Origin: Cytobacillus kochii
GTDB lineage: Bacteria > Bacillota > Bacilli > Bacillales > Cytobacillaceae
DNA length: 64,000 nt
NCBI RefSeq assembly: GCF_020171845.1
Contig: NZ_JAIVAM010000005.1
Coordinates: 186,001 to 250,000 of the forward strand
Direction of reading: 5' to 3'
Shown: one piece after another, positions 17,510 to 24,181 of the stretch
Position numbering within the stretch: position 1 is the first letter of the stretch
How the letters are laid out: the number at the start of each line of letters is the position of its first letter
The notes under the pieces: generated by a model
What the model saw: the letters and a program-made list of their open reading frames with translations, nothing else
The model's database searches: none
Told to the model about the DNA's origin: nothing
Translations under genes and position numbers: made by a program

Positions 17510-18520
17510 TTGGAGAAAACAGGTGAAAAAATTGCCTATTATCGAAAGAAAAACGGGTTTTCTAGGCAATATTTAGCTGATAATATATGTGATGAATCCA
17601 CTTTATATCGTATCGAAAAAGGACAGCAACTGCCTAGATTGGATATACTGAAAGAGATCTGCATGAAACTTAATATCCCTATTGAATACATTTTATCAGA
17701 TAATGATGAAGCAGAACTTATATCCTACGTACAAAAATTTAAGAGGCTTTGCCGTGAGAGTCTCTATCAATTAGATTTTATCACTTTACAATACCACTAT
17801 GAAGAGGCAAAAAATTTCTCTAATAACAACCCTTTATTAAACAACCGACAATTCCTCAGATTTCTAAGTTGGATTGAGGCAGTTCTTTATCATAAACGAG
17901 ATCAAAACCCTGAAAAGGCTGAAATACTGCTACGAAAACTCATCCAAAACGGTAAAATTATTAACGAAATAGATATTAATATAACGAATTCTCTTGGATT
18001 ATTACTCTTGGAACAAAATAAATTAAAAGAGGCTCTTCGTCTTTTTAGCTCATCATACAAAGCTTTAGAAAATAGTCCCTATATTGAGGATAAGTCCCTC
18101 TTCCCTAGAGTAGCCTATAATCTGGCCTGTCTTTACTATGAAAATCATAGAGATAGTGAATGCTTTGATATTTGTTATCGCCTAGAGTACTACTTACAAT
18201 CTAATCACTTATTTTATTGTGCAGGAGAAGTAAGATATCTATTGGGCATTCTACATAAGCGAAAAAACGATTTAGATATCTCCCAACAATACTTCGATGA
18301 AGCAGTAAATATATTTTCTTTTGAAAGGAAATATGCTTTCTGTAGCCAATCACTACACTCCCTTGCAGAAATTCACTATTTAAAAGGGGATTCCAGAAAT
18401 GGTGAGTTACATGTTAACAAAGCATTAAGCATAGCAGATTCAATTAATGATCAAGAAATATCTAACGCCATCAAAAAAGAAATAAAGCATACTATAAAAC
18501 AGTATGCTAGTAGGATTTAA
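17510..18520 (+). CDS. RRNPP-type transcription regulator (XRE HTH plus TPR repeats, PlcR/NprR-like)
   Basis: The 336-residue protein has an N-terminal XRE helix-turn-helix (about residues 6-62: GEKIAYYRKKNGFSRQYLAD, ESTLYRIEKGQQLPRLDILKEIC) and about 260 residues of helical TPR-like repeats, such as LGLLLLEQNKLKEALRLFSSS and YLLGILHKRKNDLDISQQYFDEA. This is the layout of PlcR, NprR and Rgg-type peptide receptors. TTG at 17510 is the start, nine bases after AGGAGG. It is divergent from the candidate signal peptide and its end overlaps the threonine aldolase gene tail to tail by 14 bases. It probably activates the TTGCGT-box promoters. Confidence 0.9.
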   Translation: MEKTGEKIAYYRKKNGFSRQYLADNICDESTLYRIEKGQQLPRLDILKEICMKLNIPIEYILSDNDEAELISYVQKFKRLCRESLYQLDFITLQYHYEEAKNFSNNNPLLNNRQFLRFLSWIEAVLYHKRDQNPEKAEILLRKLIQNGKIINEIDINITNSLGLLLLEQNKLKEALRLFSSSYKALENSPYIEDKSLFPRVAYNLACLYYENHRDSECFDICYRLEYYLQSNHLFYCAGEVRYLLGILHKRKNDLDISQQYFDEAVNIFSFERKYAFCSQSLHSLAEIHYLKGDSRNGELHVNKALSIADSINDQEISNAIKKEIKHTIKQYASRI

Positions 18521-19562
18521 TAATAGTAGAGTGTAGTATCTCTTTTATGATCTTAATTGTTGAAGTGATATCGTCATCTGTAATATGTCTATGAATAACC
18601 GCTCGTATTCTACCATATCCCATCTCAGAAAATATTACATTATTTTTTTCTGCAGCCTCAAGAAATGACTTCCAAGTGAAATTTTCATTATTGATTTTGA
18701 ACATGATTATATTTGAATGTACATCCTTTGTTTCAACCTCAATCCCATCAATCGCTTCTAATTCTTTCGCAAGTCTTTTCGCTTTCTGATGATCTTCTGT
18801 CAGTCTATCTATCATGGTTTGAAGGGCCACCAAGGCGGGAGCTGCTAAAATTCCCGCCTGGCGCATTCCTCCACCCAACATTTTTCTAATTCTTCGTACT
18901 TCGTTAATGTGTTGTTTTGTTCCTGATACAATCGAGCCTACAGGTGCCGATAATCCTTTTGATAAACAAAATTGTAAAGAGTCCACATGCTGTGTAATCT
19001 CTTTTATATCGACACCCAATGAGAGAGCTGCATTAAAAACACGGGCCCCGTCCATATAGATAGGAATATGATTTTCATCCCCAAAACGCTTTATCTTACT
19101 TAAGTAATCTAAGCTTAACGCTTTCCCTCCACACCTGTTATGTGTATTCTCAAGACAAATTAATGCCGGCAGAGCAAATTGAGGATCGTTCTTATCAATT
19201 GGAATTGCGTTGGTTAAATCTTCTATAGAGAGACTTCCATCTGACTGTGTACGAATAGGTTCGTACATAATCCCCCCGCAAACGGAAGCTCCTCCAGCTT
19301 CAAAAATATAGATATCAGATTCATCGCCAACAAGTGCTTTTGTTCCTCTTGGGCAGTATGCCATGATAGATGCTAAATTAGCCATTGTACCACTTGGCAT
19401 AAAGCAGGCCGCTTCTTTCCCTGTTAACTTTGCAGCAAATTCTTCAAGATGATTTACTGTTTCATCCTGCCCATAGACATCATCACCTAGCTTTGCTTCT
19501 TGTATTGATTGCATCATGGCATCTGTTGGCAACGTAATTGTATCACTTAAATAATTGATCAT
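18507..19562 (-). CDS. low-specificity L-threonine aldolase-like PLP enzyme
   Basis: The 351-residue protein starts MINYLSDTITLPTDAMMQSI and has the family pattern YGQDETVNHLEE, MPSGTMANL, LENTHNRCGG, YMDGARVFNA and the PLP lysine in LQFCLSKGLSAPVGS. The reaction is reversible cleavage of beta-hydroxy-alpha-amino acids, for example threonine to glycine and acetaldehyde. ATG at 19562 follows GAGGAG and overlaps the ATP-grasp gene by 20 bases. As last gene of operon 2 it probably tunes supply of threonine or allo-threonine for the enzymes just upstream, or makes another beta-hydroxy amino acid building block. Confidence 0.9.
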   Translation of the reverse strand: MINYLSDTITLPTDAMMQSIQEAKLGDDVYGQDETVNHLEEFAAKLTGKEAACFMPSGTMANLASIMAYCPRGTKALVGDESDIYIFEAGGASVCGGIMYEPIRTQSDGSLSIEDLTNAIPIDKNDPQFALPALICLENTHNRCGGKALSLDYLSKIKRFGDENHIPIYMDGARVFNAALSLGVDIKEITQHVDSLQFCLSKGLSAPVGSIVSGTKQHINEVRRIRKMLGGGMRQAGILAAPALVALQTMIDRLTEDHQKAKRLAKELEAIDGIEVETKDVHSNIIMFKINNENFTWKSFLEAAEKNNVIFSEMGYGRIRAVIHRHITDDDITSTIKIIKEILHSTIIKSY

Positions 19563-22731: not shown

Positions 22732-24181
22732 TTACATTTTCCTTTCCGGGCACCCATTTATTCAATCTCTGCTTTGCCTCGGTCACCTTTTCTGTTATCC
22801 GATTAAAACGACGAATAAACTCTGCGTTTTGCCTTTTCTGACACTCTATGATTTCATTTACTTCTTCAGGATGAACAGAGCCGGCTGTAATTTTTACAAA
22901 CAAAGCCTTTTCTGGGTCAAATATATCAACTAAAGTAGCTTGATTCATCTGAAGCTGTTTATAGCCATACCGCTCGCAGACTTGTGATAATAATAAAATA
23001 GGTAGTTTTTTTGGCGCAATTCCCTCATTGATTGCTAAGGTGATGAATTCACCTGAAATGACTTGGGCCTTACGATAAGGAATGCCTTCTTTAGCTGATA
23101 AATAATTGGCTAACGTAAATCCACCAAGGTAATCCTCTTCACATCTTTTTTTCATCTTATTTATGTTGAAATCAATATTCTCAAAAATAAGTAGCAGAAG
23201 ATCAGCAATGTCATTTGCTGTTTGGAAAAGCCGTGGAAGGTTGCTCGATGATTCCTTTGAAACCTCCACTAGATTACTAAAGGGTGTATTCCGTTGACCC
23301 AACATAAAATCCTGATAATAACTAATTAGATGACTTGTTTTTCCTCTAATTCTCTCTAGTATAGGAAGATTTCTTTTTTGTGGCATGGAGGAAGAGATAC
23401 CTACTAGTTCATCAGGAAAATGAAGGAATTGATATTCACTACTCCCCCAGTTCATCATATCTGTCATGAAACGGCTCATATTCACACCAAAGAATGCCAG
23501 ACTCTCTCCTATTTCTAAGATCCAATCCCGTGATGCCACACATACTAAAGCATGTCCACCAAATGAATCGAAACCTAGATCATTTGCCATCATTTCCAAA
23601 TCCCATGGATACTCCTGACCTGACATTGCCCCAGAGCCTAATGGACAACTTTCATTTATAGACTCCAAACAAAGAACCATTTTCTCTAATGTCTTCTGTA
23701 TATGACGGCTTATGGCAGTCAGATAGAATCCTACACTCATCACCTGCGCCGTTTGAAAGTGTGTATAGCCTGGCATAATCGTCCTTTTGTACTTAGAAGC
23801 CAGTGCCCATAACTCTATCAAGAGCTTTTGAAATTTTTGAATGAGACTGATCCATGAATCCCTTGCATACATTAACTGTCCGCATGCCTGTAAATCATTT
23901 CTGCTTCTGTCTAAATGCCAATTTAATACTGGCTTACCCAAGTTCTCATCAATTGCCTTTTCAATAGAAAAGGCAATATCATTCATATTAGAATAGGCGC
24001 TTTTAATAATATTTTCTTTTTGTACAGATTCTACGCTTTCTAAGAGTTTTACAGCATCTGTTGTATTAATTAAATTCATTTCCTCATAAGATTTTATGAG
24101 CACTTTTTCAATAGAAAGATAATGTTCTAGATAGTTTTCTGACTCAAACAATAGCTGCGGATATAATATAAGCTTATTCAT
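22724..24181 (-). CDS. argininosuccinate lyase-like enzyme
   Basis: The 485-residue fumarase/aspartase-superfamily protein has LDRSRNDLQAC, PGYTHFQTAQ, CPLGSGAMSG and the signature GISSSMPQKRNLP with the catalytic serine. These enzymes eliminate fumarate from an N-substituted aspartate. No other arginine genes are near, and it lies between an NRPS gene and the threonine kinase, so a biosynthetic role is likely: release of fumarate from an aspartate adduct to leave a free beta-amine. The start MNKLILYPQL at 24181 lies five bases past the NRPS stop; an in-frame ATG at 24217 is possible. Confidence 0.88.
   Translation of the reverse strand: MNKLILYPQLLFESENYLEHYLSIEKVLIKSYEEMNLINTTDAVKLLESVESVQKENIIKSAYSNMNDIAFSIEKAIDENLGKPVLNWHLDRSRNDLQACGQLMYARDSWISLIQKFQKLLIELWALASKYKRTIMPGYTHFQTAQVMSVGFYLTAISRHIQKTLEKMVLCLESINESCPLGSGAMSGQEYPWDLEMMANDLGFDSFGGHALVCVASRDWILEIGESLAFFGVNMSRFMTDMMNWGSSEYQFLHFPDELVGISSSMPQKRNLPILERIRGKTSHLISYYQDFMLGQRNTPFSNLVEVSKESSSNLPRLFQTANDIADLLLLIFENIDFNINKMKKRCEEDYLGGFTLANYLSAKEGIPYRKAQVISGEFITLAINEGIAPKKLPILLLSQVCERYGYKQLQMNQATLVDIFDPEKALFVKITAGSVHPEEVNEIIECQKRQNAEFIRRFNRITEKVTEAKQRLNKWVPGKENVND

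Follow-up and report, generated by a model that had tools for sequence, protein, structure and literature searches.

Clusters for friulimicin and for the uridyl peptides mureidomycin and pacidamycin contain a pyridoxal-phosphate (PLP) enzyme, an argininosuccinate-lyase-like enzyme and an ATP-grasp enzyme or a kinase beside nonribosomal peptide synthetase (NRPS) genes. Such sets are proposed for 2,3-diaminobutyrate, a building block that occurs in several antibiotics and whose biosynthesis is mostly a proposal. Disruption of an npsG homologue proposed to act in 2,3-diaminobutyrate formation abolished mureidomycin in Streptomyces roseosporus (PMC4572928). Gausemycins also contain 2,3-diaminobutyrate, and a gausemycin-type cluster encodes a cysteine synthase and an argininosuccinate lyase (PMC12471526). 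In the open literature that we searched, no enzymology of a route to this amino acid through aspartate was found. Here we analyze a stretch of 64,000 nucleotides from Cytobacillus kochii (contig NZ_JAIVAM010000005.1, positions 186,001 to 250,000; hereafter, the window), in which five consecutive genes lie next to NRPS genes. As judged from the families and the distribution of its proteins, this is a genuine precursor cassette that is conserved widely and whose product is most likely 2,3-diaminobutyrate.

A five-gene cassette in an NRPS operon

All five cassette genes, located at 18507-24223 on the minus strand, are intact, and Pfam and NCBIfam scans confirmed the families and the gene order given in a preliminary description of this DNA. 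Overlaps of about 8-38 bases join neighbouring cassette genes, and the lyase gene likewise overlaps the gene for NRPS2; therefore, the cassette forms one operon with the NRPS. Nor has the gene set come together by chance, because many genomes have the same set next to NRPS genes, in some cases in a different order. One boundary had to be corrected. The lyase gene, previously taken to start at 24181 (about 14 residues too late), starts with TTG at 24223, because this codon lies 9 bases after an aaaggag ribosome-binding site and because residues G5, R6 and P11, encoded upstream of 24181, are invariant among relatives. Based on alignment with one relative, the aldolase probably starts with ATG at 19562.

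We infer, with a probability of roughly 0.72, that the cassette supplies module 2 of the adjacent NRPS with 2,3-diaminobutyrate made from L-threonine (or L-allo-threonine), each step being deduced from sequence. The PduX-type kinase would convert threonine into O-phosphothreonine. The SbnA-like PLP enzyme would then eliminate the phosphate and attach the aspartate amine to the beta carbon, and the lyase would remove fumarate from the adduct, leaving the beta amine of 2,3-diaminobutyrate. The second adenylation (A) domain of NRPS1, A2, would load this diamino acid, and the aldolase may supply L-allo-threonine. PLP-dependent replacement in enzymes of this fold type usually retains configuration; if it does so here, L-threonine would give the (2S,3R) product and L-allo-threonine the (2S,3S) product. 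The proposal draws on what can be read from the sequences directly, namely, the family memberships of the proteins, their tight co-inheritance, the loss of the argininosuccinate lyase (ASL) signature and the link to one subclass of A domains.

Kinase, PLP enzyme and lyase

The kinase, the sole one of its kind in the C. kochii genome, is a member of the PduX family expected to phosphorylate L-threonine. Its homologues in other Bacillota, at about 31-38% identity, adjoin genes for CobD (threonine-phosphate decarboxylase) and CobS. Since these are users of O-phosphothreonine, the latter is the expected product of the kinase.

The best NCBIfam model for the PLP enzyme is SbnA, with a score of 273 bits (below the cut-off of 350), and the closest solved structures are those of SbnA (5d84-5d87). 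The catalytic lysine K43 and Y148, which aligns with SbnA Y152, are invariant, and a glycine occupies the position of SbnA S185. Eight other PALP matches are present in the genome. No SbnB-type (ornithine-cyclodeaminase-like) Pfam domain was detected among the 30 proteins of the cluster region that were scanned.

The lyase retains the serine loop GISSSMPQKRN and the GYTH motif. The ASL signature YNKDxQED, carried by the separate argH of the same genome, is found in none of the 67 cassette lyases. Against TIGR00838 (ArgH) the lyase scores 247 bits, below the cut-off of 279.5, and its profile matches bacterial ASLs and the ethylenediamine disuccinate (EDDS) lyase 6g3d at similar scores. EDDS lyase joins fumarate and 2,3-diaminopropionate to give toxin A (PMC10792612), which, apart from the absent methyl group, is the reverse of the step proposed for the cassette lyase.

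Linkage to one A-domain subclass

A-domain codes were read by alignment to GrsA. Using the A2 core of NRPS1 as a query against 398 Bacilli genomes, we obtained matches that split into two groups, with E-values of 1e-61 or better and of 1e-47 or worse. The first group comprises 27 genomes, 19 of which are among the 23 genomes of the same sample that have a cassette-type kinase (E < 1e-100); the hypergeometric P is about 1e-22, with relatedness ignored. Three more genomes of this group have the cassette PLP enzyme, bringing the total to 22. These 22 genomes, each with a cassette gene, all have the code DDV[QRNA][VIL]S[ST]ID. By contrast, no cassette-type PLP enzyme was found in the five other genomes of the group, which have the code DDLFFSSID, or in 12 NRPS-rich controls (best score 292 bits versus more than 600 in cassette genomes). 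The same pattern is seen within a single genus (g305), where the kinase is present in the genomes that have the A2 subclass and absent from six controls that lack this subclass.

The code of A2 itself, DDVQVSSID, resembles known 2,4-diaminobutyrate codes. Because it ends in SID and has extra acidic positions, it fits a short, amine-bearing side chain. The pattern DDV[QRNA][VIL]S[ST]ID may serve in Bacilli as an A-domain marker for finding clusters that use 2,3-diaminobutyrate. Codes of the type DVWH[IVF]SLVD, which are ordinary serine codes, were also considered as a cassette marker and dropped; domains of this type are among the weaker of the two sets of matches to A2. The DDLFFSSID domains (L253-L257) form a subclass of their own and perhaps load another diamino acid.

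Distribution and core of the cassette

Composition was counted within about 10 kb at 80 loci, which came from a scan of named genomes and belong to Bacillota, Actinomycetota and Chloroflexota. All five genes are present at 23 loci and all but the aldolase at 29; six loci have all but the kinase, and five only the PLP enzyme, ATP-grasp ligase and lyase. The latter three genes are found together at 63 loci, and the aldolase is found at 33. The remaining 17 loci hold fewer cassette genes, several of them lying at contig ends.

Whole-genome searches were performed for 18 genomes in which the neighbourhood of the locus was incomplete. A strong cassette-type ATP-grasp and a cassette lyase are encoded somewhere in 15 of these genomes, and two others (Baia and Croceifilum) have them only as a fusion of about 900 residues. 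In the last one, Chengkuizengella (L122), the ATP-grasp matches are weaker and the only lyase is argH-like, a cassette lyase being absent. A kinase homologue is present in 14 genomes, including Tumebacillus with a weak match only; in the other four, namely, Metabacillus halosaccharovorans, M. niabensis, Bacillus sp. J37 and one Herpetosiphonaceae bin, the whole-genome search found none. Based on these results, the core consists of the PLP enzyme, the ATP-grasp ligase and the lyase, the kinase is a frequent member and the aldolase is an accessory.

The whole set in a Bacillaceae cluster had been described as apparently unusual. This holds for the family as sampled, in which the cassette-type kinase occurs in two of 193 genomes (weaker PduX-like matches are found in 22 more), but not more broadly, given the 23 of 398 Bacilli genomes and the numerous relatives in Actinomycetota. 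In a class-wide sample of 394 actinomycete genomes the PLP enzyme was found in at least two, one of them the centre of the sample; five candidates per genome were scored, so that the count is a lower bound. No relative of the kinase was found among the viral contigs searched. Within the genus, Cytobacillus horneckiae (G012) has the set in a different gene order. In the PLP enzyme tree the window sequence groups with Brevibacillus borstelensis and B. thermoruber and not with C. horneckiae, which suggests separate acquisition within the genus.

Several loci depart from the common arrangement. In Chengkuizengella axinellae (L122, 6132-14629), where no NRPS lies in the vicinity, the kinase and PLP enzyme are accompanied by several ligases of the ATP-grasp type; this set perhaps makes an adduct or a peptide without an NRPS. 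A second locus of B. borstelensis (L107/L116) has the kinase and PLP enzyme beside an NRPS, no lyase, and an ATP-grasp lacking about 160 internal residues; as a complete set is present elsewhere in that genome, these parts may act in trans. Lone cassette-like kinases with no other cassette genes nearby, mostly beside NRPS genes, were found at L095, L100, L102, L108 and L110. Streptomyces cirratus, which makes the 2,3-diaminobutyrate-containing cirratiomycins, has two cassettes (L167 and L179). Finally, in Kitasatospora (L191) and Streptomyces globosus (L192) the cassette resides within NRPS loci on large plasmids.

The ATP-grasp ligase and the aldolase

The ATP-grasp protein has the fold of L-amino-acid ligases and a LAL_C2 domain. 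Its AlphaFold2 model (pLDDT 90) is most similar to 3vot (Z-score of 38.8 over 377 residues, rmsd 3.2), followed by BacD/YwfE at Z-scores of about 32-33. At 41 of the 80 loci, mostly in Actinomycetota, the PLP enzyme and the ATP-grasp form one open frame; the same fusion occurs in two Paenibacillus (L153 and L156), which are placed in the Bacillota part of the tree. At L109, which holds a related set, an ATP-grasp is instead fused to an ASL-type lyase (893 aa, PRK02186 family), with a kinase and an SbnA-like enzyme encoded next to it. Of the two halves of PRK02186, the N-terminal one is matched by the window ATP-grasp (262 bits) and the C-terminal one by the window lyase (176 bits). Fusions to both partners suggest that the ATP-grasp acts between or beside the PLP and lyase steps. 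Possible roles include formation of a peptide bond on the adduct, either transient or protective, and, together with the lyase, an aspartate-dependent amidation.

The closest solved structures to the aldolase are the L-allo-threonine aldolases 3wgb and 1jg8, and the catalytic lysine motif SKGLSAP is present. A low-specificity aldolase could interconvert L-threonine and L-allo-threonine via glycine and acetaldehyde, thereby setting the C3 configuration of the product.

Weighing of the explanations

The route from threonine to 2,3-diaminobutyrate put forward in the preliminary description passed every indirect test made as far as the kinase, PLP enzyme and lyase are concerned (CobD/CobS neighbours, loss of the ASL signature and linkage to A2), but it does not explain the ATP-grasp, and the aldolase turned out to be only accessory. 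Its logic thus holds but leaves a gap, the ATP-grasp being part of the core. Several observations count against the route as we describe it. First, it leaves an L-amino-acid-type ligase no place, and this ligase is conserved like the other two core enzymes. Second, four of the 18 genomes searched lack the kinase and a fifth has only a weak match, so that phosphorylation is not always performed by a PduX-type enzyme. Third, a second code type, DIWE/QxxADD, stands beside the cassette at many loci of Actinomycetota, and the test of the A2 subclass takes no account of how the genomes are related. Fourth, sequence does not tell whether threonine or serine is the substrate, nor whether the amine used is aspartate or a different one.

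A variant that would accommodate the first of these points is a three-enzyme core with an obligatory ATP-dependent ligation between aspartate addition and fumarate release, the kinase and aldolase being add-ons that set substrate and stereochemistry. We propose this only tentatively and consider it somewhat doubtful; if true, it would represent an ATP-dependent route to beta-amino groups that we have not met in earlier descriptions.

Among the other explanations, the one that survives best has serine as the starting point, with the same aspartate and fumarate logic leading to 2,3-diaminopropionate. The PLP enzyme is indeed closest to SbnA, an enzyme of diaminopropionate synthesis, and the A2 code would fit any short diamino acid. 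Yet the kinase falls into the PduX family, relatives of which adjoin users of threonine phosphate, and a threonine aldolase is frequent in the cassette (33 of 80 loci), so that we find serine an unlikely substrate. Alternatively, the ATP-grasp and lyase might be an aspartate-dependent amidation pair like PurC/PurB of purine synthesis, with the kinase and PLP enzyme making something else. This would agree with the single ATP-grasp/lyase protein at L109 and with the co-occurrence of the two in 17 of 18 genomes, but hardly with the fusion of the ATP-grasp to the PLP enzyme at 41 of 80 loci or with a linked A domain that has a diamino-acid-like code, since no A domain could load a primary amide. 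We regard it as improbable. Even less probable is that the aspartate adduct itself, an aminopolycarboxylate of the aspergillomarasmine type, is the product and that the lyase adds or has another role. EDDS lyase does form such adducts in vitro with excess fumarate (PMC10792612), and the L122 genome, which has a kinase, a PLP enzyme and ATP-grasps, lacks a cassette lyase and has no NRPS near these genes. However, the set of the window, like that of most loci, belongs to an NRPS operon and co-occurs with one subclass of A domains, whose acidic code positions are unsuited to a tri-acid. Finally, although every family involved has housekeeping members, the idea that ordinary arginine, cysteine or cobalamin paralogues lie beside the NRPS by chance can hardly be upheld, being already contradicted by a conserved cassette that travels together across three phyla, and also by the separate argH, the eight other PALP matches and the lack of a second such kinase in the genome.

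If conversion of threonine into 2,3-diaminobutyrate is the correct reading, the cassette would provide a defined minimal gene set for this building block. It also raises a sharp question, namely, what job the constantly present ATP-grasp performs.

The surrounding cluster

The cassette is part of a hybrid cluster (2460-42203) that combines fatty-acid-type genes with a four-module NRPS and also holds transporters and regulators (Table 1). Two Brevibacillus, two Fictibacillus and Rossellomorea marisflavi have syntenic relatives of it, in which the genes of the whole cluster follow the same order. Together with Cytobacillus, these genera thus share an uncharacterised cluster family. The acyltransferase-like assignment at 13072-14946 was made by eye.

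Table 1. Features of the cassette and the surrounding cluster in window coordinates (C, condensation; T, thiolation; TE, thioesterase; ACP, acyl carrier protein; TPP, thiamine pyrophosphate; SDR, short-chain dehydrogenase/reductase)
Feature	Coordinates	Strand	Basis or prediction
Argininosuccinate-lyase-superfamily enzyme	22724..24223	-	Pfam Lyase_1 and ASL_C2; predicted fumarate release from aspartate adduct
GHMP kinase, PduX (L-threonine kinase) family	21808..22731	-	Pfam GHMP; homologues adjoin CobD/CobS
SbnA-like PLP beta-replacement enzyme	20759..21820	-	Pfam PALP; predicted substrates O-phosphothreonine and aspartate
ATP-grasp ligase, L-amino-acid-ligase type	19543..20781	-	ATP-grasp_4 and LAL_C2
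L-threonine/L-allo-threonine aldolase-like PLP enzyme (accessory)	18507..19562	-	Beta_elim_lyase / GntG family
NRPS2: C-A4-T-TE; A4 code DATQFGLVA	24186..28187	-	Domain scan and code reading
NRPS1: A1-T-C-A2-T-C-A3-T; A1 DVWHISYID (Ser-like), A2 DDVQVSSID, A3 DVRHFAFLA	28174..36342	-	
NRPS1 A2 specificity core, predicted loader of cassette product	32104..32676	-	Subclass co-occurs with cassette
FabA-like dehydratase, ACP, FabH, TPP enzyme, aldehyde dehydrogenase, AMP ligase, two acyltransferase-like proteins, SDR, GNAT	7036..16340	-	Dissociated fatty-acid/polyketide genes, same cluster
FabF-type ketosynthase, FAD oxidoreductase, Na+/H+ antiporter	36330..40476	-	Upstream of NRPS
4'-phosphopantetheinyl transferase	40641..41339	+	

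Comparison with known systems

Work cited in PMC3179956 reports a mureidomycin enzyme that replaces the hydroxyl of threonine by ammonia; this reaction differs from the aspartate route proposed here. The friulimicin and uridyl-peptide clusters resemble the window cluster in gene content; the latter differs in that all five genes occur together, in a Cytobacillus, and in that its PLP enzyme and ATP-grasp are two separate proteins. Separate, too, are the window proteins that match the two halves of the PRK02186 ATP-grasp/argininosuccinate-lyase fusions. With the SbnA/SbnB pathway to 2,3-diaminopropionate (staphyloferrin B, zwittermicin) the cassette shares an SbnA-type enzyme that adds the amine of an amino acid to a phosphorylated hydroxy amino acid. 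Unlike that pathway, the window cluster has no SbnB-type dehydrogenase and instead has a lyase predicted to release fumarate. EDDS lyase belongs to the same superfamily as the window lyase and, as predicted for the latter, has N-substituted aspartates of diamines as substrates, and aspergillomarasmine synthase joins aspartate to activated serine. In those systems the reaction is catabolic or the adduct is the product, whereas in the window both steps would run in sequence to yield the free diamino acid.

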